Below are positions 16,715-23,588 of a stretch of 64,000 nt of DNA, piece after piece. Position 1 is the stretch's first letter; each line of letters begins with the position of its first letter. A program made the position numbers and the translations under genes. The stretch covers positions 244,415 through 308,414 of the forward strand of contig JABMOM010000032.1 of NCBI GenBank assembly GCA_013204105.1, in the 5' to 3' direction. Under the pieces are notes generated by a model. The model had not been told where the DNA came from and searched no databases. It was given only the letters and a program-made list of their open reading frames with translations. Origin of the DNA: Flavobacteriales bacterium. GTDB lineage: Bacteria; Bacteroidota; Bacteroidia; Flavobacteriales_G; Salibacteraceae.

Positions 16715-17495
16715 GTACGCTCTGATGAGTTGGTGCTCGCTCTTCCAGCCGCTCTACTTCTATTGTAGCGGCAACGGTTGAGAATATAGAGAGGTAACCG
16801 GCGGTCATTGGTCCAATAAAGGGGATCACCATCCAAAACGCAAATGGAGCTCCCAGACTTAGCGCACTAAAACGATGGCTCCAAACGTACTGATTGCTTT
16901 CTCTTACGGTGAAAAGACGGCGTTCGAGCGAATAATCCATGAAATTGTATCCATAGAAGTATCCGTTGACGATGAAAAGAAGGAAGGGCGCTACAGCGCC
17001 GATTAAGGGTATGAACCCGATCAAAAAGCACCCAAGGGAGAGCACCCCTTGAAGCATGCCATTTCGAATGGCGAGCCCGGCAGCGCGGGTTATGTCTCGT
17101 ATAAACTGAGTAATGCTGAAAGGAGGAACATCCTTATTCATCTTTTGGGCGACCAGTTCGCTCAGCCAAGTCAGGATAGGTGTCATCATTATCAAGATGA
17201 TCGTACCTCCAAAGAATGCAAAGATGAAGTAGAGAATGATGCGCATCACGATCCATAAAACCCAGTAGACAACATCTTGGATAACGGAGGCCCAATCCGG
17301 TAGCCAATCGATAGTGTTTATCCATACATCGATGCCGTCTGAAATGCTTTTTGTTGCCCAAGAGGTGAGGGAGAAACCTCCAAAAAAGACCAGTACAGTG
17401 ATGAGGGTGGGGAACCATAGGAACCAGCCCAGCTGATGGCGGAAGAGGAATCGAAATGCTTTTCTATATGCAGCAAGTGCCCTCATGATGATCAA
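16707..17495 (-). CDS. EI24/CysZ-like membrane protein
   Basis: A 262-residue polytopic membrane protein with about six hydrophobic segments. The segment FLIGFIPLIGAVAPFLLFIVNGYFYGYNFMDYSLERR is characteristic of the EI24 family that includes CysZ, the sulfate permease. Bacteroidota members are not shown to carry sulfate, so the substrate is open. It overlaps the Crp/Fnr gene by 4 bases, and lies next to a sulfur-metabolism module, which makes a sulfur-related role plausible but unproven. Confidence 0.85.
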   Translation of the reverse strand: MIIMRALAAYRKAFRFLFRHQLGWFLWFPTLITVLVFFGGFSLTSWATKSISDGIDVWINTIDWLPDWASVIQDVVYWVLWIVMRIILYFIFAFFGGTIILIMMTPILTWLSELVAQKMNKDVPPFSITQFIRDITRAAGLAIRNGMLQGVLSLGCFLIGFIPLIGAVAPFLLFIVNGYFYGYNFMDYSLERRLFTVRESNQYVWSHRFSALSLGAPFAFWMVIPFIGPMTAGYLSIFSTVAATIEVERLEERAPTHQSVHA

Positions 17496-18145
17496 ACATT
17501 TTCCACGAGTGGTGCGAGGTCAATCTGATTCCGCTGTAGGCTTATCATTCCATTTTGTTCCATCTTCTTCAATAACCTTGAGATCACCTCGCGTGAGGTG
17601 TTCAGGTCATTGGCAATCTCTTGATGGGTTGTGTGGATGACCGTGGTTTCGAGTGTTCTCGATTGTTTGATGAGGTAGAATTCCAATCGCTCATCCATCG
17701 CCTTGAAGGCAATTGCGTCAACTACGGTGAGAATCTCTTCGAACCGTGAGCGGTACGTCTCCAAGACGAAATAGTACCAAGATTTGTACTCCAACATGAG
17801 CTGATCCATCTTGTCAATGGGGACAAGGATGGCAGTGGATGCTTGCATGGCCCTGGCCATGACTTCTGATGTTTTTTGTTGAGACGCACACACCATGGAA
17901 AGCGCACAGGCATTGCCCGGCTCGATGTAGTAGACGAAAAACTCCCCGCCATGCTCACCCTCTCGGTAAAGCTTGACCAATCCGTCTACCACCAACAAGG
18001 TGGATCGAAAATACTGGCCGGTACGCATCATTTCTTCTCCTTCTGCAAACTCTTTGATGCTCCCCTCCATAGCTAGGCGATCGATCAAATCGGGTTCAAA
18101 CATGGGGAAACGGTCCGTGAGTAGCTCCTTTATTCTAGTGTTCAT
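17492..18145 (-). CDS. Crp/Fnr-family transcriptional regulator
   Basis: A 217-residue regulator with an N-terminal cyclic-nucleotide-like beta-barrel (about 15-125), a dimerisation helix (about 130-155), and a C-terminal helix-turn-helix TTHQEIANDLNTSREVISRLLKKME (about 168-192). The Cys residue pattern of oxygen-sensing FNR is absent; only one Cys (near residue 80) is visible, so the signal is unknown. Because three similar operators lie upstream of neighbouring sulfur genes at matched promoter spacings, it is the best candidate for their activator. It has its own perfect -7 element and is followed by two overlapping genes. Confidence 0.93.
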   Translation of the reverse strand: MNTRIKELLTDRFPMFEPDLIDRLAMEGSIKEFAEGEEMMRTGQYFRSTLLVVDGLVKLYREGEHGGEFFVYYIEPGNACALSMVCASQQKTSEVMARAMQASTAILVPIDKMDQLMLEYKSWYYFVLETYRSRFEEILTVVDAIAFKAMDERLEFYLIKQSRTLETTVIHTTHQEIANDLNTSREVISRLLKKMEQNGMISLQRNQIDLAPLVENV

Positions 18146-18165: not shown

Positions 18166-18173
18166 CAAATATA
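18166..18173 (-). promoter_or_regulatory. -7 element TATATTTG of the Crp/Fnr operon
   Basis: Perfect TAnnTTTG on the minus strand, 21 bases before the ATG at 18145; start predicted near 18162. Confidence 0.55.
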
Positions 18174-18218: not shown

Positions 18219-19118
18219 TCACCTGTTCTTCGGAAAACGGAAACCGTGAACCAATTGCTGCATGAACGATTTGGGAAAATGGGCTACCCCTGGAAAGCCT
18301 AATTTAACATGGGCATCATCCTTCGGAATCGAGTTCGTTTTGAACAAGTAATCCCAGAGACTTAAGGAAATACCAAAGTTCATTCCCCTTCGATGACCTT
18401 CAGGGAGGTTATAGGCATGATGCCAAAGGTGCATAACCGGATTGTTGAGGATGTACTTCAATGGACCATACGTCAGGTGGATATTGGCATGGTTCAAATG
18501 CCCTATCACAATCGAGAAGTAGAACACGATGTACGCCTGCTCGGGTGTGAATCCTCCAATCAGCATCACTGCGATGTACTTCATCGGCGTATAGAAAACG
18601 TTTTCCATCCAATGGTAGCGCAGGTGAGCCGCAAAACCCATTTCTTCAACGGAGTGGTGTACTTTGTGAAATTCCCATAGCACATCGAATCGATGTAAGA
18701 TGACGTGCGTGAGCCACTGGATGAAATCAGTCACGACAAAGAAGATCAAGAGTTGAGCCCACCAGTTCATGCCAGAAATGTCGATCAGCGCTAAGCTGCT
18801 CAAATCACCGCCGAAGGCTTCTTTGAAGGCCATTTCTGTGACGTTTGAGAAAGCCATGAAGATGATCAGCTTGAAAATGTAGAAATTGAAGAACATGTAA
18901 AAGCTGTCGAGCCAGAAATCCTTCCTGAAGACGGCTTGGTTCTTCCGCCATGGAAAGGCGATCTCAAGCCCCCAAACGACGAGTGAAAGCAAGATCAACC
19001 ACCAGAAATAATTCACGTACCAAGGGTCCACTTGAAACGTAATCTCCCGCCACAGGTAGCCTCCGAAATCGGAGAATGAACGCAGAAACACCTCCCAATA
19101 CCTATCCATTCGATTCAA
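18219..19118 (-). CDS. Sterol desaturase/fatty-acid hydroxylase family protein
   Basis: A 299-residue membrane protein with about four hydrophobic segments and the His clusters of the di-iron fatty-acid hydroxylase superfamily: HVILHRFD (HxxxH), HKVHHSVEEM (HxxHH), HLNHANIH, and HLWHHAYN (HxxHH). It should hydroxylate or desaturate a lipid in the inner membrane; the substrate is unknown. It starts 28 bases after the rhodanese lipoprotein gene and is the last gene of the five-gene rhodanese-thioredoxin operon. Similar genes often occur in Bacteroidota sulfur clusters. Confidence 0.9.
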   Translation of the reverse strand: MNRMDRYWEVFLRSFSDFGGYLWREITFQVDPWYVNYFWWLILLSLVVWGLEIAFPWRKNQAVFRKDFWLDSFYMFFNFYIFKLIIFMAFSNVTEMAFKEAFGGDLSSLALIDISGMNWWAQLLIFFVVTDFIQWLTHVILHRFDVLWEFHKVHHSVEEMGFAAHLRYHWMENVFYTPMKYIAVMLIGGFTPEQAYIVFYFSIVIGHLNHANIHLTYGPLKYILNNPVMHLWHHAYNLPEGHRRGMNFGISLSLWDYLFKTNSIPKDDAHVKLGFPGVAHFPKSFMQQLVHGFRFPKNR

Positions 19119-19146: not shown

Positions 19147-19548
19147 TTATTTCCAGTCGCTGTATCCTCCTGAAAGGTTGTGTACTTCTTTAAAGCCCAT
19201 TGCCTTCATTTTGTTTTGGGCCGTCTTGCTTCTTCCGCCAGCAGCACAATAGACCAATACGGGAGCCGATTTATCTAGTTTGGCCAACTCACTGTCGAAA
19301 CTTGCTTTTGAAATGTCAATCTGCTCAGCTCCTTCGATGATGCCTTGTGATACTTCACCATCCGTGCGTACATCAATGATCAATAGGTTAGGACGTTCGG
19401 CCATCAGCTGCATCGCCTCAGCATTGCTGACATCTGTATAAATACTTGTTGCTTGCTCCTGCTGACCGTTAGAGGTTGCATGATCATTCTGTTGCGCATT
19501 GCATGAGAGCAGCGCCATCATCATAAGAAAGGAAAGTGCGTATTTCAT
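19147..19548 (-). CDS. Rhodanese-domain lipoprotein
   Basis: A 133-residue periplasmic lipoprotein with signal YALSFLMMMALLSC. A single rhodanese domain (about 35-133) follows, with active-site loop YCAAGGRSK (Cys about 103). It should accept or transfer sulfane sulfur in the envelope. The ATG overlaps the end of the small membrane protein gene by 4 bases. It is the fourth gene of the operon controlled by the operator at 20509-20524. Confidence 0.9.
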   Translation of the reverse strand: MKYALSFLMMMALLSCNAQQNDHATSNGQQEQATSIYTDVSNAEAMQLMAERPNLLIIDVRTDGEVSQGIIEGAEQIDISKASFDSELAKLDKSAPVLVYCAAGGRSKTAQNKMKAMGFKEVHNLSGGYSDWK

Positions 19549-19781
19549 TTGAATTGATTTTTGAGTTTAAAAAACAAAGATAAGACGAGGAGCAACCATG
19601 GGGTTCCGTGCAGAACCGTGTCGAACCAATCCATTAGTTCCATGCCCACAGCGCCACCGGCGATCCATTGGAGTTTACCCCAGATATGGGGTTCTGGAAG
19701 GAACGGAGCTAGGCCGAGGGTAAGACTTGCGAGCACCCAAAAGCGCAGGTGTCGAACGAAGAAATCTGAAATGCGTTGCAT
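19545..19781 (-). CDS. Small membrane protein of the rhodanese-thioredoxin operon
   Basis: 78 residues with two predicted membrane helices (about 12-28 and 58-73) and the conserved-looking block TLGLAPFLPEPHIWGKLQW. Proteins like this are sometimes annotated as RND-transporter components in Bacteroidota, but at this length no transport function can be supported. It starts 19 bases after the thioredoxin stop and overlaps the rhodanese lipoprotein gene by 4 bases. The tight spacing makes co-expression with sulfur-handling proteins likely. Confidence 0.8.
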   Translation of the reverse strand: MQRISDFFVRHLRFWVLASLTLGLAPFLPEPHIWGKLQWIAGGAVGMELMDWFDTVLHGTPWLLLVLSLFFKLKNQFK

Positions 19782-19800: not shown

Positions 19801-20118
19801 TTAGCGTACAGCGTCGATGACCTTTTTCAATTGAGCAGCGCTTTGTATTCCAGATTGTCGCCATTTGATGTGGCCATCTTTAAAAATCATCATGGTTGGA
19901 ACGCCGCGGATCTGAAAACTGCTCGATACCATGGGGTTTTTATCTACATCAATCTTGATGATCCGAACATCTTCATTTACCACGGCACTCAATTCCTTCA
20001 GGATGGGTTGCATCATCTTGCACGGGCCACACCATTCTGCAAAGAAGTCGACCAATACGACTTTCCCAGAGTTGATAATTTCAGAGAAAGTCTCTTTTTT
20101 CTGCACTGTTGATTCCAT
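19801..20118 (-). CDS. trxA: Thioredoxin
   Basis: A 105-residue cytoplasmic thioredoxin with the WCGPC active site (FFAEWCGPCKMM) and the cis-Pro loop RGVPTMMIF. I chose the ATG at 20118, which overlaps the rhodanese stop by one base (TAATG), rather than 20142, which would overlap the rhodanese gene by 25 bases. It lies directly behind a rhodanese and probably reduces persulfides or the rhodanese itself. Several thioredoxins are usually present in such genomes, so the symbol is by family only. Confidence 0.92.
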   Translation of the reverse strand: MESTVQKKETFSEIINSGKVVLVDFFAEWCGPCKMMQPILKELSAVVNEDVRIIKIDVDKNPMVSSSFQIRGVPTMMIFKDGHIKWRQSGIQSAAQLKKVIDAVR

Positions 20119-20453
20119 TACCGTTTGATCTTTCCTCTCCACTGCATGATTCCGCCTCGAAGATTGCTCAATTGTTCAAACTCCATTTTGGACAATTGCT
20201 TGCACGCATCTCCACTGCGCATTCCGCTGCGGCAATACACCATGTAGTGTTTGTTTCGATCGAGCTGTTGCGCCTTTTGATAAAATTCACGGGATGAAAC
20301 ATCGAGGTGCTTTGCTCCGGGAAGGTGTCCTGAATTGAATTCTGACTTTGTGCGCACGTCCAAAACAACGCTGTTATGTTTCTTCATGCTCTCCGCAAAT
20401 GTGGAGGCATCAAGGTCTTGGTAATTCTTGGTCTTGTTGAAGAGTCCGAACAT
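20118..20453 (-). CDS. Single-domain rhodanese, first gene of the sulfur operon
   Basis: A 111-residue cytoplasmic rhodanese with the loop YCRSGMRSGDA (Cys about 76) and the GHLPGAKHLDV substrate-side motif. It should shuttle sulfane sulfur between thiols, thioredoxin and persulfide dioxygenase. It leads a five-gene operon: rhodanese, thioredoxin, small membrane protein, rhodanese lipoprotein, sterol desaturase. The operator at 20509-20524 lies 56 bases upstream of its ATG, between it and the cysteine-dioxygenase gene. Confidence 0.93.
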   Translation of the reverse strand: MFGLFNKTKNYQDLDASTFAESMKKHNSVVLDVRTKSEFNSGHLPGAKHLDVSSREFYQKAQQLDRNKHYMVYCRSGMRSGDACKQLSKMEFEQLSNLRGGIMQWRGKIKR

Positions 20454-20479: not shown

Positions 20480-20524
20480 CAAAGGACGCATGCTGGATTG
20501 AACACGACGGTAACAGATGTCACA
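20480..20524 (-). promoter_or_regulatory. Operator A and -7 element of the rhodanese-thioredoxin operon
   Basis: GGTAACAGATGTCACA (20509-20524 on the plus strand) is a 16-bp quasi-palindrome of GTRAY/GTYAC half sites. The minus-strand TTTG of a weak -7 element (GTCCTTTG) ends with its G at 20480, exactly 29 bases from the near edge of the operator. The predicted start is about 20476, which puts the operator centre (20516.5) near -40.5, a class II activator position. The same spacing is found at operators B and C. Confidence 0.7.
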
Positions 20525-20527
20525 TTG

Positions 20528-21052
20528 CTATAATACTCTTGAATATGCAGTAGGGACAGTTTCGATGCTCCCGGTATCTTCATCATAAATGTGCCATGCA
20601 TCAATCTTATCTGCATAGATATGGATGGCGATAGCGTCGCCTGCGCTCAGGTTGGCGTAGCGATGGAAGCCGAAACTCGTGTTCATATAGATGATGTCGC
20701 CGGGGTCCATGAGTTGTGTTTCGGTTATCTCAGCGTTTGGTTCTCCGTCAAAAACGTCAAAGAATTCCAAAATCAATTGTCCTTTGATCACCTTGGTCCA
20801 AGCTTGTTGGAAGTTGTAGTCGTGGATGCGGGTGGATTGTCCGGGCTTCCAATAGCTCAGCACTGCCTCAATTCCAGGCGTGTCGTAAATACAAATCCGC
20901 TGATGATCCTCGCATTTAGCATCGCAGAACTTGATCAATTCAGCGGGATCCAGGTTGATAGCTTCAACCAACGACCTGTAACCTTCGTAGCCGGGGCCCA
21001 TGTTCAGGTTGTGTACCAGTTGTTCGAGCGTGTCTATTGTTTGTGAGACCAT
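20528..21052 (-). CDS. Cysteine dioxygenase-family protein with HxY in place of HxH
   Basis: A 174-residue cupin that should oxidise cysteine (or a related thiol) to the sulfinate. It carries SYWKPGQSTRIHDYNF, with His77 in place but Tyr79 where mammalian and most bacterial enzymes have the second iron-ligand His. The third ligand His130 (FGFHRYAN) and the His144-x-Tyr146 pair (IHIYADK) are present. I chose the ATG at 21052 over 21073 because a near-consensus -7 element (TACCTTGC, 21070-21077) overlaps the upstream ATG. It lies between the persulfide dioxygenase and the rhodanese operon, but a terminator isolates it from the former. Confidence 0.88.
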   Translation of the reverse strand: MVSQTIDTLEQLVHNLNMGPGYEGYRSLVEAINLDPAELIKFCDAKCEDHQRICIYDTPGIEAVLSYWKPGQSTRIHDYNFQQAWTKVIKGQLILEFFDVFDGEPNAEITETQLMDPGDIIYMNTSFGFHRYANLSAGDAIAIHIYADKIDAWHIYDEDTGSIETVPTAYSRVL

Positions 21053-21069
21053 AGCCGATGAGTTTTGCG

Positions 21070-21104
21070 GCAAGGTAAAGGGAGTGCTCAGGTCATTTTA
21101 TGAC
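21070..21104 (-). promoter_or_regulatory. Cysteine-dioxygenase promoter with GTCAT-TTT-ATGAC palindrome
   Basis: GTCAT-TTT-ATGAC (21092-21104) is a perfect 5-3-5 inverted repeat. It lies upstream of the -7-like TACCTTGC (21077-21070), its centre about 27 bases from the last G of that element. That places it over the -33 region rather than at -40.5. It may be the site of a different regulator or a repressor-type site for the local Crp/Fnr protein. Confidence 0.45.
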
Positions 21105-21144
21105 AGCAATCAAGGCGGGGTATGATATCTTGAGACCACAAACA

Positions 21145-21173
21145 AAAACCGGGGCCAATTGCGCCCCGGTTTT
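21145..21173 (-). terminator. Rho-independent terminator after the persulfide dioxygenase
   Basis: AAAACCGGGGC (21145-21155) pairs with GCCCCGGTTTT (21163-21173) around a 7-base loop. Read on the minus strand it ends in TTTTTGTTTG. It closes the persulfide dioxygenase transcript and separates it from the cysteine-dioxygenase gene. Confidence 0.85.
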
Positions 21174-21225
21174 CGACCTTGCTCCCGCGCGTGGCGGAAG
21201 CCCATCTGCACCAATCAAATTTGTA

Positions 21226-22644
21226 TCAGAGCATGCTAGTTTGGGCATGGAAACTCGAAAGTGGGAGTCCTTCGATCTCCTTCATTTTGTTGAATCCTCC
21301 AAGGACGTTGGTCACATCCTTGACGCCGAATTTTTTCATCATCGACGCTGCTGCTACGGATCGATATCCACCGGCGCAATGCACGATATACTTTCCTTCC
21401 TTGTCCAACTTGTCGAGGTTTTGGTAGATGAAGTCCAACGGAAAATTCTCAGCGCCTTCCACGTGGTGAGAGTTGTATTCACTCGCCTTGCGTACATCAA
21501 GCACCTTTGGGTTCTCGATCGCGTATTGCTTGGCGAAGTCTTCAGGTGCCATGTTTTCCATTGAATCCACTTCATTTCCATCAGCTACCCAAGCTCCAAG
21601 GCCTCCTTTGAGGAATCCAACGGGATTGTCGTAGCCGACGCGTGCCATGCGCGTGATCACCTCTTCTTCCCTGCCTTCATCTGCAACCATTAGGATGGGT
21701 GCATCAAGGTCTTCTATCAGAACACCCATCCAAGGGGCGAAATTGTCGTCGATCCCAATGAAGATGGAGCCGGGGATGAATCCGAGTGTAAACCTTGAAT
21801 GATGTCGCGTGTCGATGATGATGGCGTTCTTGTCCTTCATCGCCTCTTTAAAAGCAGTGACATCCATGAACGTCATTCCTTTGGATAAGACATCATCAAA
21901 ACTGCTGTAGCCCATTTTGTTCATCACGGCATTCTTTGGGAAATACTGTGGAGGCGCGACGAGCCCGGTAGTGACTTCTTTTATAAAATCCTCTTTCGAC
22001 ATGTCTGCACGAAGTGCATAGTTGCTGCGCTTTTGGTTTCCTAGGGTGTCAACCGTTTCGCTGCTCATGTTCTTTCCACAAGCACTTCCTTGCCCATGAC
22101 CCGGATACACAATTACGTGATCGGGAAGCGGCATCAGCTTGTTTCGGAGGGAATCGAACAAATGACCGGCTAGATCTTCTTGTGTCAAGTCGGTTTTGAC
22201 AGCTAAATCGGGCCTTCCAACGTCCCCAATGAATAAGGTGTCCCCAGTGTATATGCTGTGTTCTTTGCCGTTTTCATCCAACAACAAGAAGCTCGAGGAC
22301 TCCATGGTGTGGCCTGGTGTGTGAAGCACCTTTATCGTGATATCGCCTAAGGAAAGCGCTTCACCATCTGCAGCTATGTATGCGTCGAAATTCGCCTTTG
22401 CGGTGGGTCCATACACAATCTTGGCTCCGGTCTTCTTCGCTAGGTCCAAATGACCGGAGACAAAATCAGCATGAAAATGCGTTTCGAGTACGTACTTGAT
22501 GGTAGCTCCACGTTCCTTAGCCATTTGTATGTATGGCTCTACTTCTCGGAGTGGGTCCACGATGGCTGCTTCGCCATTGGATTCGATGTAGTAGGCAGCT
22601 TCTGCCAAACATCCTGTGTAAATCTGTTCGATTTTCATTTGCAC
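21226..22644 (-). CDS. CstB-like persulfide dioxygenase-rhodanese fusion
   Basis: A 472-residue cytoplasmic protein with three domains. The first (about 1-245) is an ETHE1-type metallo-beta-lactamase fold with THFHADFVSGH, GHTMES and YTGDTLF, giving predicted iron ligands His56, His112 and Asp135. The middle (about 255-360) is a rhodanese-like domain with no active-site Cys (VADEGREEE in its place). The last (about 370-465) is an active rhodanese with HCAGGYRS (Cys423). This is the same architecture as staphylococcal CstB, which turns low-molecular-weight persulfides into thiosulfate and sulfite. It has its own operator and terminator. Confidence 0.93.
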   Translation of the reverse strand: MQMKIEQIYTGCLAEAAYYIESNGEAAIVDPLREVEPYIQMAKERGATIKYVLETHFHADFVSGHLDLAKKTGAKIVYGPTAKANFDAYIAADGEALSLGDITIKVLHTPGHTMESSSFLLLDENGKEHSIYTGDTLFIGDVGRPDLAVKTDLTQEDLAGHLFDSLRNKLMPLPDHVIVYPGHGQGSACGKNMSSETVDTLGNQKRSNYALRADMSKEDFIKEVTTGLVAPPQYFPKNAVMNKMGYSSFDDVLSKGMTFMDVTAFKEAMKDKNAIIIDTRHHSRFTLGFIPGSIFIGIDDNFAPWMGVLIEDLDAPILMVADEGREEEVITRMARVGYDNPVGFLKGGLGAWVADGNEVDSMENMAPEDFAKQYAIENPKVLDVRKASEYNSHHVEGAENFPLDFIYQNLDKLDKEGKYIVHCAGGYRSVAAASMMKKFGVKDVTNVLGGFNKMKEIEGLPLSSFHAQTSML

Positions 22645-22663
22645 TGTTTTTCAATTTGTAGTG

Positions 22664-22708
22664 CAAAGGTGGTGGGCTGGATTGGCCTGCAGAGTGACTT
22701 CTGTTACA
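22664..22708 (-). promoter_or_regulatory. Operator B and -7 element of the persulfide dioxygenase gene
   Basis: AGTGACTTCTGTTACA (22693-22708, plus strand) is a 16-bp quasi-palindrome. The -7 element CACCTTTG (minus strand, last G at 22664) is a 7-of-8 match to TAnnTTTG. The 29-base distance from the G to the operator edge is identical to operators A and C. Start predicted near 22660, 16 bases before the ATG. Confidence 0.75.
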
Positions 22709-22741
22709 ATGCAAGGATGATGGTCGTCAGGAAAGAGGGCG

Positions 22742-23539
22742 CTAGATGAATTCCTTCACAAGGATCAGGATGCCCATGATCAGAACGAACCATCCAAATG
22801 CGACCTTGAGCTTATCTCCATCTATTTTGGTTGCCAAATAACTTCCGAGGAAGATGCCAACCACGGCCAGCGAAGTAAATACCGCTAAGAAGCTCCAGTC
22901 GATGGAGTAGTTTGAGACGTCGCCAAGAAAACCGATAAGGGACTTCGTGGAAATAATGACGAGGGAGGTACCGATGGCCATTTTCATTTCAAGACCAGCG
23001 AAAAGAACGAGGGCCGGAATGATCAAGAATCCCCCTCCTGCACCAACCAATCCTGTAAGGGTGCCAACCACGAGACCCTCGGCAAGGACGACAAGCGGGG
23101 TAACCCATGCGGCCCTTTTTTTCGTTTCTGCTTTGGGTTCCTTCTTCTTGCGGATCATGCTTAGAGAAGCCACAATCATCAAAACAGCGAATAAAACCAT
23201 GAGGAGCATCCCCTTCGACATGATGAAGGATCCTATATGAAGGACTTCATCTGGGATAGCGGGCACCAGATACCGCCTTGTCAAATAGACGGCAGCGATG
23301 CTTGGGACACCAAAAAGGAACGCCATTTTAAAATCCACAAGGCCTTTTAAGGCATAACGTGCACCGCCCACTAAGCTTGATGCACCCACGATGAAAAGAC
23401 TGTATGCCGTGGCCATGATGGGTGAGATGCCCATGAGGTATACTAGTACAGGAACTGTAAGGATAGATCCTCCACCTCCTATGAGTCCGAGTGAGACCCC
23501 AATAATCAGCGCGCTCAGGTATCCGAGTATCTCTACCAT
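22742..23539 (-). CDS. TauE/SafE-family sulfite/sulfonate exporter
   Basis: A 265-residue polytopic membrane protein with about eight hydrophobic segments arranged as a repeat. It has the family motifs GLIGGGGSILTVP near residue 12 and LVGAGGGFLIIPALV near residue 155. TauE/SafE proteins export sulfite, thiosulfate or organosulfonates. Beside a persulfide dioxygenase, which makes sulfite, this suggests export of that product. I chose the ATG at 23539, not 23572, because the operator and promoter lie between the two, and the longer form adds 11 residues that do not look like a membrane-protein start. Confidence 0.93.
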   Translation of the reverse strand: MVEILGYLSALIIGVSLGLIGGGGSILTVPVLVYLMGISPIMATAYSLFIVGASSLVGGARYALKGLVDFKMAFLFGVPSIAAVYLTRRYLVPAIPDEVLHIGSFIMSKGMLLMVLFAVLMIVASLSMIRKKKEPKAETKKRAAWVTPLVVLAEGLVVGTLTGLVGAGGGFLIIPALVLFAGLEMKMAIGTSLVIISTKSLIGFLGDVSNYSIDWSFLAVFTSLAVVGIFLGSYLATKIDGDKLKVAFGWFVLIMGILILVKEFI

Positions 23540-23543
23540 GGCG

Positions 23544-23588
23544 CAAAAATGGGCTTTCCAAGGCACCCTCAATGTGATAATTGTCCCT
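23544..23588 (-). promoter_or_regulatory. Operator C and -7 element of the TauE/SafE gene (predicted leaderless)
   Basis: TGTGATAATTGTCCCT (23573-23588, plus strand) matches operators A and B at seven invariant positions. The -7 element CATTTTTG (minus strand, last G at 23544) again lies exactly 29 bases from the operator edge. That G is 5 bases from the ATG at 23539, so the transcript should start at or one base before the start codon. Confidence 0.65.

Follow-up and report, generated by a model that had tools for sequence, protein, structure and literature searches.

We analyzed a window of 64,000 nucleotides (nt) from a Flavobacteriales bacterium (GenBank assembly GCA_013204105.1, contig JABMOM010000032.1, positions 244,415 to 308,414), in which three operators of the type bound by the CRP protein, here called A, B and C, lie upstream of three sulfur transcripts on the minus strand, each at the same distance from a predicted -7 promoter element. 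Taken together with comparisons across the Bacteroidota, these sites suggest that a Crp/Fnr-family protein encoded in the window probably binds A, B and C and acts as a class II activator of the sulfur transcripts, its residues Cys80 and Cys86 probably reacting with persulfide or polysulfide. The window is part of one contig (C30) of a 3.1 Mb genome (G000) assembled in 46 contigs and 96% complete; the named loci nearest to it come from uncultured Flavobacteriales metagenome-assembled genomes.

The operator is a 14-bp palindrome, GTRAY-N4-RTYAC, with the half-sites GTGA-N6-TCAC; A and B fit it fully and C with one mismatch. Re-reading of the sequence placed the operators and -7 elements as follows.

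20510..20523, minus strand: operator A, palindrome GTGACATCTGTTAC
22694..22707, minus strand: operator B, palindrome GTAACAGAAGTCAC
23574..23587, minus strand: operator C, GGGACAATTATCAC, one mismatch to the palindrome
20480..20483, minus strand: TTTG of predicted -7 element A (GTCCTTTG), its last G 30 nt from the operator edge
22664..22667, minus strand: TTTG of predicted -7 element B (CACCTTTG)
23544..23547, minus strand: TTTG of predicted -7 element C (CATTTTTG); the ATG of the TauE gene follows 4 nt later, a predicted leaderless start

An initial annotation of this DNA had located the same sites and TTTG elements, and its spacing of 29 bases, counted from the edge of a 16-mer, corresponds to 30 nt when counted from the edge of the 14-mer to the last G of TTTG, and is the same for A, B and C. 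The one-sided consensus it gave describes real sites, but we rejected it as a genome-wide search term, since alone it is unspecific, with fewer matches (37) than its reversed control (60). From the operator centre to the G of TTTG the distance is 36.5 nt. Start mapping in Flavobacterium psychrophilum puts a TAnnTTTG box at -12 to -5 (PMC9723704), hence the G at -5, and with this placement carried over the operator centre would lie at -41.5, not near -40.5 as first proposed. By this geometry the operator takes the place of the -33/-35 element, which is the class II activator position that the annotation had named. Its description of the -7 boxes as degenerate holds in part: compared with TAnnTTTG, B and C lack the first T only and A lacks TA, and the first T is likewise missing from most promoters of the genus, but the A of TA is present in 98% of 97 distinct promoters of named relatives, though it was not a selection criterion. 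In ten loci including the window (nine of the genus and one of a sister genus) the TauE start codon follows TTTG by 4-6 nt, so that the TauE mRNA would be leaderless or nearly so; in the window this codon stands at the predicted +1 (23539-23547). A stretch common to the spacers of A and B (CAATCCAGC) was not adopted as a second element, being partly altered in the closest relative (L039) and absent from the other promoters of the genus. Separately, the genome contains 30 copies of the 10-mer CCAATCCAGC and a single copy of its reversed control; one of the 30 lies in the spacer of promoter B.

Read on both strands, the genome holds the palindrome at 40 places (reversed control, 74). Five of these have TTTG at 29-31 nt (1.5 expected, P ~0.02) and four at exactly 30 nt (0.5 expected, P ~0.002), the expected counts using the TTTG frequency of the window. 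Besides A and B, the five comprise sites at a DUF302 gene (C30:7012), which has the same geometry elsewhere in the genome, at a gene for a 488-amino-acid protein (C17:73195) and at the gene of a YgaP-like membrane protein beside a second Crp/Fnr gene, Crp2 (C43:96772, at 31 nt); the site is directly upstream of the DUF302 gene in four of the six genomes having that gene. On its own, this excess is modest and suggestive, no more. The 488-amino-acid protein belongs to no Pfam family (L265 1-1514), and its perfect palindrome lies 30 nt from TATTTTTG, with the start codon 5 nt further. Another palindrome, GTGACCTTTGTCAC, lies between genes, ahead of one with a YceI domain (L277 1516-1529, C30:99115), and has TTTG at 52 nt.

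Comparison with relatives gave a far larger signal. We compared 74 named Bacteroidota loci with a relative of the Crp/Fnr gene (from Pedobacter, Dyadobacter, Flavobacterium, Chitinophaga and others, excluding L070-L074 and L089 as duplicates of the family set). An offset of 30 nt between palindrome and TTTG was seen 125 times, whereas the 48 other offsets in the range 10 to 60 have a mean of 3.2 and a maximum of 14. At offset 30, five control motifs matched 0, 1, 1, 0 and 3 times, one of them reaching 7 at offset 31. A separate set of 30 family loci behaved alike, with 26 matches at offset 30 against a mean of 0.85 elsewhere and 0-2 for six control motifs, which differ from those used for the named loci. 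A site at 29-31 nt was present in 67 of the 74 named loci. That the repeats and spacings arose by chance can practically be dismissed: the modest excess within the genome (P ~0.02 to 0.002) is all that speaks for it, while the comparative excess is overwhelming and refutes chance as the source of the counts in relatives, in line with the recurring downstream genes and the co-occurrence with the regulator described below. The loss of both the sites and their distance to the -7 element in close relatives, which the initial annotation had named as counting against it, was not observed: within the genus the 26-nt spacer drifts and the palindrome and TTTG at its ends stay.

Bacteroidota families besides that of the window genome show the arrangement too, ahead of the same genes. 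Across all 104 loci (offsets 29-31, at most one mismatch, gene families assigned from cluster representatives), genes for a metallo-beta-lactamase (MBL) fused to rhodanese domains follow 70 sites in 64 loci and TauE-like genes follow 64 sites in 64 loci, each at exactly 30 nt. Further downstream genes are YeeE-like (7), thioredoxin (5), the regulator itself (5), a family of 78 amino acids (3) and YgaP-like transmembrane proteins (3), followed by outer-membrane efflux proteins (3), genes resembling sulfide:quinone oxidoreductase (SQR; 2), an 84-amino-acid protein (2) and 13 single cases; 14 sites had no called open reading frame (ORF). In the window, PF01925 identifies the TauE gene; the relatives were assigned to TauE by sequence clustering rather than member by member with Pfam. 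In the span of sequence compared for the 74 named loci, a site precedes TauE in 50 and MBL in 43; loci with both include those of Flavobacterium anhuiense (L137) and Pedobacter nyackensis DSM 19625 (L080). In five genomes of one genus (L313, L314, L317, L319 and L320), a Crp relative lacking Cys86 is accompanied by the site GTGACTTTTATCAC, identical in all five and 31 nt from TTTG; this is perhaps a sister regulon with a spacing one base longer.

Activation is suggested by the distance being fixed to the base pair together with the absence of any conserved -33 element in the 97 promoters. We regard it as improbable that the protein is instead a repressor which, bound at -41.5, blocks RNA polymerase and is freed by persulfide, in the manner of CstR or SqrR; the operator does overlap the place of a -33 element, as such a repressor might, but the distance holds to one base pair in 125 cases, and most -7 boxes of the genus lack the first T. 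Repressor sites usually tolerate shifts.

The palindrome and the regulator gene co-occur across the phylum. Among 296 sampled genomes, 83 carry the MBL gene (E<=1e-80) and 116 a relative of the regulator (E<=1e-30, forms without Cys86 included), and we examined the 1.2 kb upstream of the best MBL gene in 80 genomes, out of 82 with MBL besides G000 (G077 and G281, with distant MBL genes, were left out). Where the MBL protein was at least 50% identical, the palindrome was found upstream in 41 of 60 regulator-positive genomes and in none of 9 regulator-negative ones (Fisher P 1.2e-4), and a site with TTTG in 38 of 60 and 1 of 9, respectively (P 0.008), the single case being a one-mismatch site; over all 80 genomes the values were 5e-7 for the palindrome and 6e-5 for site plus TTTG, all of these P values ignoring kinship. 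Within one genus, G192 has the regulator and the sites and G098 has neither; a weaker pair is G113 (palindrome present, TTTG not at 30) and G322 (none; 84% complete). A deeper search of 8 of the 17 regulator-negative genomes revealed no close relative of the regulator (best match 1.3e-14).

The Crp/Fnr gene reported by the initial annotation encodes a protein with a cyclic-nucleotide-binding-like domain and a Crp-type winged helix (PF00027 and PF13545, both above cut-off), and its recognition helix SREVISR carries the CRP residues R-E-x3-R, which together with the GTGA/TCAC half-sites place it, by sequence, in the Crp/Fnr superfamily; residues 185, 186 and 190 are invariant in 60 aligned rows (the window and 59 named loci). 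It is neither a cAMP receptor protein proper (49.4 bits against an NCBIfam equivalog cut-off of 266) nor an FNR oxygen sensor, having no N-terminal Fe-S cysteines and scoring 28.7 against 228 bits. Cys80 and Cys86 are its sole cysteines, spaced as CX5C, and this pair, as expected of a persulfide sensor, is conserved in 60 of the 60 aligned sequences; in a wider set of 144 relatives Cys80 is found in 143 (a broken gene leaves a gap in one) and Cys86 in 117 (one more is unreadable). An AlphaFold model has a Crp/FNR fold (mean predicted local distance difference test, pLDDT, 86), with Cys80 just before and Cys86 inside helix 82-89, which from alignment we take to occupy the position of the phosphate-binding (cAMP) cassette of CRP. 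This modeled placement fits a dithiol switch, of which it is no proof.

Four Crp/Fnr genes of the genome score above the HTH_Crp_2 cut-off (two weaker matches lay outside the comparison). Those on contigs C21 and C10 read, by eye, T-E-S-L-I-R and T-Y-E-S-V-I-R instead of CRP-type recognition residues, which leaves the window regulator and Crp2 (C43) as candidates. Crp2 has the recognition residues AREVITR and adjoins a palindrome with TTTG at 31 nt, as might be expected if A, B and C were in fact controlled by it, but this is very improbable and was rejected: no counterpart was found at E<=1e-20 in other members of the genus, its CVMSFSAA lacks the second cysteine (Cys86), and it is the window regulator that is in synteny with the target genes. 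At the Crp2 locus (L069 6493-7423, C43) the gene is followed by that of the YgaP-like transmembrane protein, whose perfect palindrome lies 31 nt from TACATTTG; ArsR-, methyltransferase- and ACR3-like genes of arsenic type were seen nearby by eye.

As to the signal, it is unlikely, though to be taken seriously, that the same regulator acts through the same sites as a class II activator in response to something else, such as disulfide or electrophile stress, oxygen, nitric oxide (NO) or a small pocket ligand. Cys80 and Cys86 could sense any thiol oxidant, and the ligand cannot be read from sequence. What argues for sulfur is the set of targets that keeps recurring (MBL-rhodanese, TauE, YeeE, thioredoxin, YgaP-like and SQR-like genes), whereas no haem, iron-sulfur or NO gene recurs among the downstream-gene clusters of the 104 loci. 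In 40 loci of 8-13 kb chosen by hand, around 20 of the weakest regulator matches and 20 middling ones (most of the latter genomes lacking a close MBL gene), the neighbors of the 16 regulators with both cysteines compared with those of the other 24 included MBL in 6 vs 0, TauE in 5 vs 0 and YeeE in 5 vs 0. Eleven loci (L335, L336, L338, L339, L341, L344-L346 and L348-L350) have Crp relatives with Cys80 and without Cys86 beside thioredoxin, five of them with DUF302, and hardly any such site.

Several observations weigh against persulfide-responsive activation by the window protein. The 24 loci without both cysteines have thioredoxin (11), DUF302 (5), SQR (2) and YgaP-like (2) neighbors, and because regulators lacking Cys86 thus adjoin sulfur genes, the cysteine pair is not needed by every sulfur-linked member, a point that also favors a different signal. 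The model is at its least certain in the cysteine helix (residues 81-90, mean pLDDT 64), and the paralogue Crp2, whose recognition residues are similar, could share sites with the window regulator here. A site at 29-31 nt is missing from seven of the 74 named loci, and only 34 show a site before both MBL and TauE in the span compared; 22 of the 60 regulator-positive genomes lack a site with TTTG within 1.2 kb of the best MBL gene, and with distant MBL proteins (36-42% identical) none was found in 3 regulator-positive or 8 regulator-negative genomes. Furthermore, many of the named loci come from closely related members of Flavobacterium and Pedobacter; the counts are therefore not independent, and the Fisher P values are optimistic.

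The initial annotation had reported no SQR, which holds for the neighborhood of the operators, but a gene for a type III SQR lies on a different contig of the genome (C45:31279-32514; NF049943, 641 bits against a cut-off of 525), followed by a DsrE2-like gene (PF13686; under the NCBIfam DsrE2 cut-off). A perfect palindrome precedes the SQR start by ~97 nt (palindrome L288 1570-1583; SQR locus L292 1492-2730, C45). Of the seven genus members with the gene, five have the palindrome at a comparable position (G000, G011, G012, G014 and G020, whose SQR is split) and two, G010 and G017, do not. In G000 and G011 its edge is, by hand count, 66 nt from a -7-like box, TACTTTCG. We therefore rejected it as a class II site and kept it out of the counts; the distance of 66 rather than 30 nt points to another promoter class, and SQR is likely a non-class-II member of the regulon.

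The genes concerned run on the minus strand in the order TauE, MBL-rhodanese, cysteine dioxygenase, rhodanese, thioredoxin, 78-amino-acid protein, rhodanese, fatty-acid hydroxylase-like protein, Crp/Fnr regulator and CysZ/EI24-like protein.

22742..23539, minus strand: TauE/SafE-family exporter (PF01925, 3.9e-42 on ORF 22742-23572; ATG at 23539)
21226..22644, minus strand: MBL with two rhodanese domains, CstB-like (PF00753 and two PF00581 stretches)
20528-21073, minus strand: cysteine dioxygenase-family gene between operators A and B, separated from the MBL gene by a GC-rich inverted repeat
20118..20453, minus strand: rhodanese A (PF00581), first gene of the predicted operator-A transcript; the site is also upstream of its relatives
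19801..20142, minus strand: thioredoxin (TIGR01068 above cut-off)
19575-19582, minus strand: TATCTTTG, possible extra internal promoter ahead of rhodanese B
19545..19781, minus strand: 78-amino-acid conserved protein, no family match; its relatives in L060, L063 and L065 have the same operator
19147..19548, minus strand: rhodanese B (PF00581)
18219..19118, minus strand: fatty acid hydroxylase-like membrane protein (PF04116) in the co-directional run
18166..18173, minus strand: TATATTTG, complete -7 consensus before the regulator gene, predicted own promoter without operator
17492..18145, minus strand: Crp/Fnr-family regulator, 217 amino acids
16707..17495, minus strand: CysZ/EI24-like membrane protein (PF07264), overlapping the end of the regulator gene

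The product of 21226..22644 has the domain content of CstB-type proteins, an MBL dioxygenase domain fused to two rhodanese-like domains, and is a predicted persulfide dioxygenase/sulfurtransferase; its closest solved structures by sequence are PDB 3tp9 (1.5e-70) and 3r2u (1.9e-56). The cysteine dioxygenase gene was not included in the operator-B transcript because of the 152-nt gap with its inverted repeat, read by eye.

In the mechanism we propose, the Crp/Fnr protein would bind the three palindromes at about -41.5 once its conserved cysteine pair has, probably, reacted with persulfide or polysulfide, and as a class II activator it would turn on three transcripts, those of rhodanese-thioredoxin, the persulfide-dioxygenase-like gene and TauE. 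Since the regulator gene is the sixth in a co-directional run that begins at operator A, with gaps of at most 73 nt, read-through could provide positive feedback, and its own consensus -7 box may keep a basal level of the sensor. What the sequences show directly is the palindromes, their spacing, their persistence in relatives and their co-occurrence with the regulator gene, along with the cysteine pair and the recognition residues. DNA binding by the regulator, activation and the persulfide signal are what we infer; at this strength the interpretation of the initial annotation is supported, and its observation is confirmed. More broadly, we lean toward a regulon across the Bacteroidota in which a Crp/Fnr protein, its cyclic-nucleotide cassette replaced by a CX5C dithiol, would sense persulfide or polysulfide and activate, from class II promoters, detoxification, TauE-type export and its own synthesis.

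If true, this would add Crp/Fnr as a new protein superfamily among reactive-sulfur sensors and place an activator where staphylococci use a repressor. In the literature searched, the sensing and clearing of reactive sulfur in Bacteroidota is not described, yet relatives of the regulator occur in 116 of the 296 Bacteroidota genomes sampled; the titles and abstract openings of the open-access literature, among the matches listed, describe no Crp/Fnr regulator of Bacteroidota persulfide genes (subscription papers and preprints lay outside this scope). A defined regulator, a 14-bp operator, a spacing of one-base-pair precision and a named cysteine pair also provide criteria by which the regulon can be recognized in further genomes.

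Escherichia coli CRP at class II promoters uses GTGA-N6-TCAC half-sites, an R-E-x3-R helix and a centre at -41.5. The system predicted here resembles it in all three respects and differs in having CX5C where CRP, by alignment, has the cAMP cassette, in scoring below the NCBIfam CRP cut-off and in its Bacteroidota -7 box. The best match to the regulator by sequence and by Foldseek E-value is PDB 3dv8, a Crp/Fnr protein of Eubacterium rectale with CX5C (CLLSASC) at the aligned place. Crp of Acinetobacter baumannii is persulfidated at a cysteine in sulfide-exposed cells, but that protein is close to cAMP-type Crp/Vfr and is discussed for biofilm and apart from sulfur-gene promoters, unlike the present case (PMC7315123). 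A review of reactive-sulfur sensors names CstR, SqrR, BigR, PigS, FisR, OxyR, LasR and OhrR and, in that section, no Crp/Fnr protein; the ArsR-type repressors SqrR and BigR and the activator FisR share the cysteine-based control of sulfide oxidation genes predicted here and belong to different protein families (PMC9774590). The genome, at 96% completeness, has no match to PF02583 at E<=1e-3 (as a control, the search gave matches in 6 of 14 genomes), and its persulfide genes are accordingly not a cst operon under CstR, a CsoR-family regulator. In Staphylococcus aureus, CstR represses cst and senses per- and polysulfide by two cysteines (PMC5480029). The predicted regulon resembles that system in placing a persulfide dioxygenase-sulfurtransferase, a TauE-type exporter and SQR under one sensor with two cysteines, whose sensing is predicted here, and, as the initial annotation had proposed, it is wired differently, its regulator being a Crp/Fnr protein at an activator position and not a CsoR-family repressor (PMC5480029).

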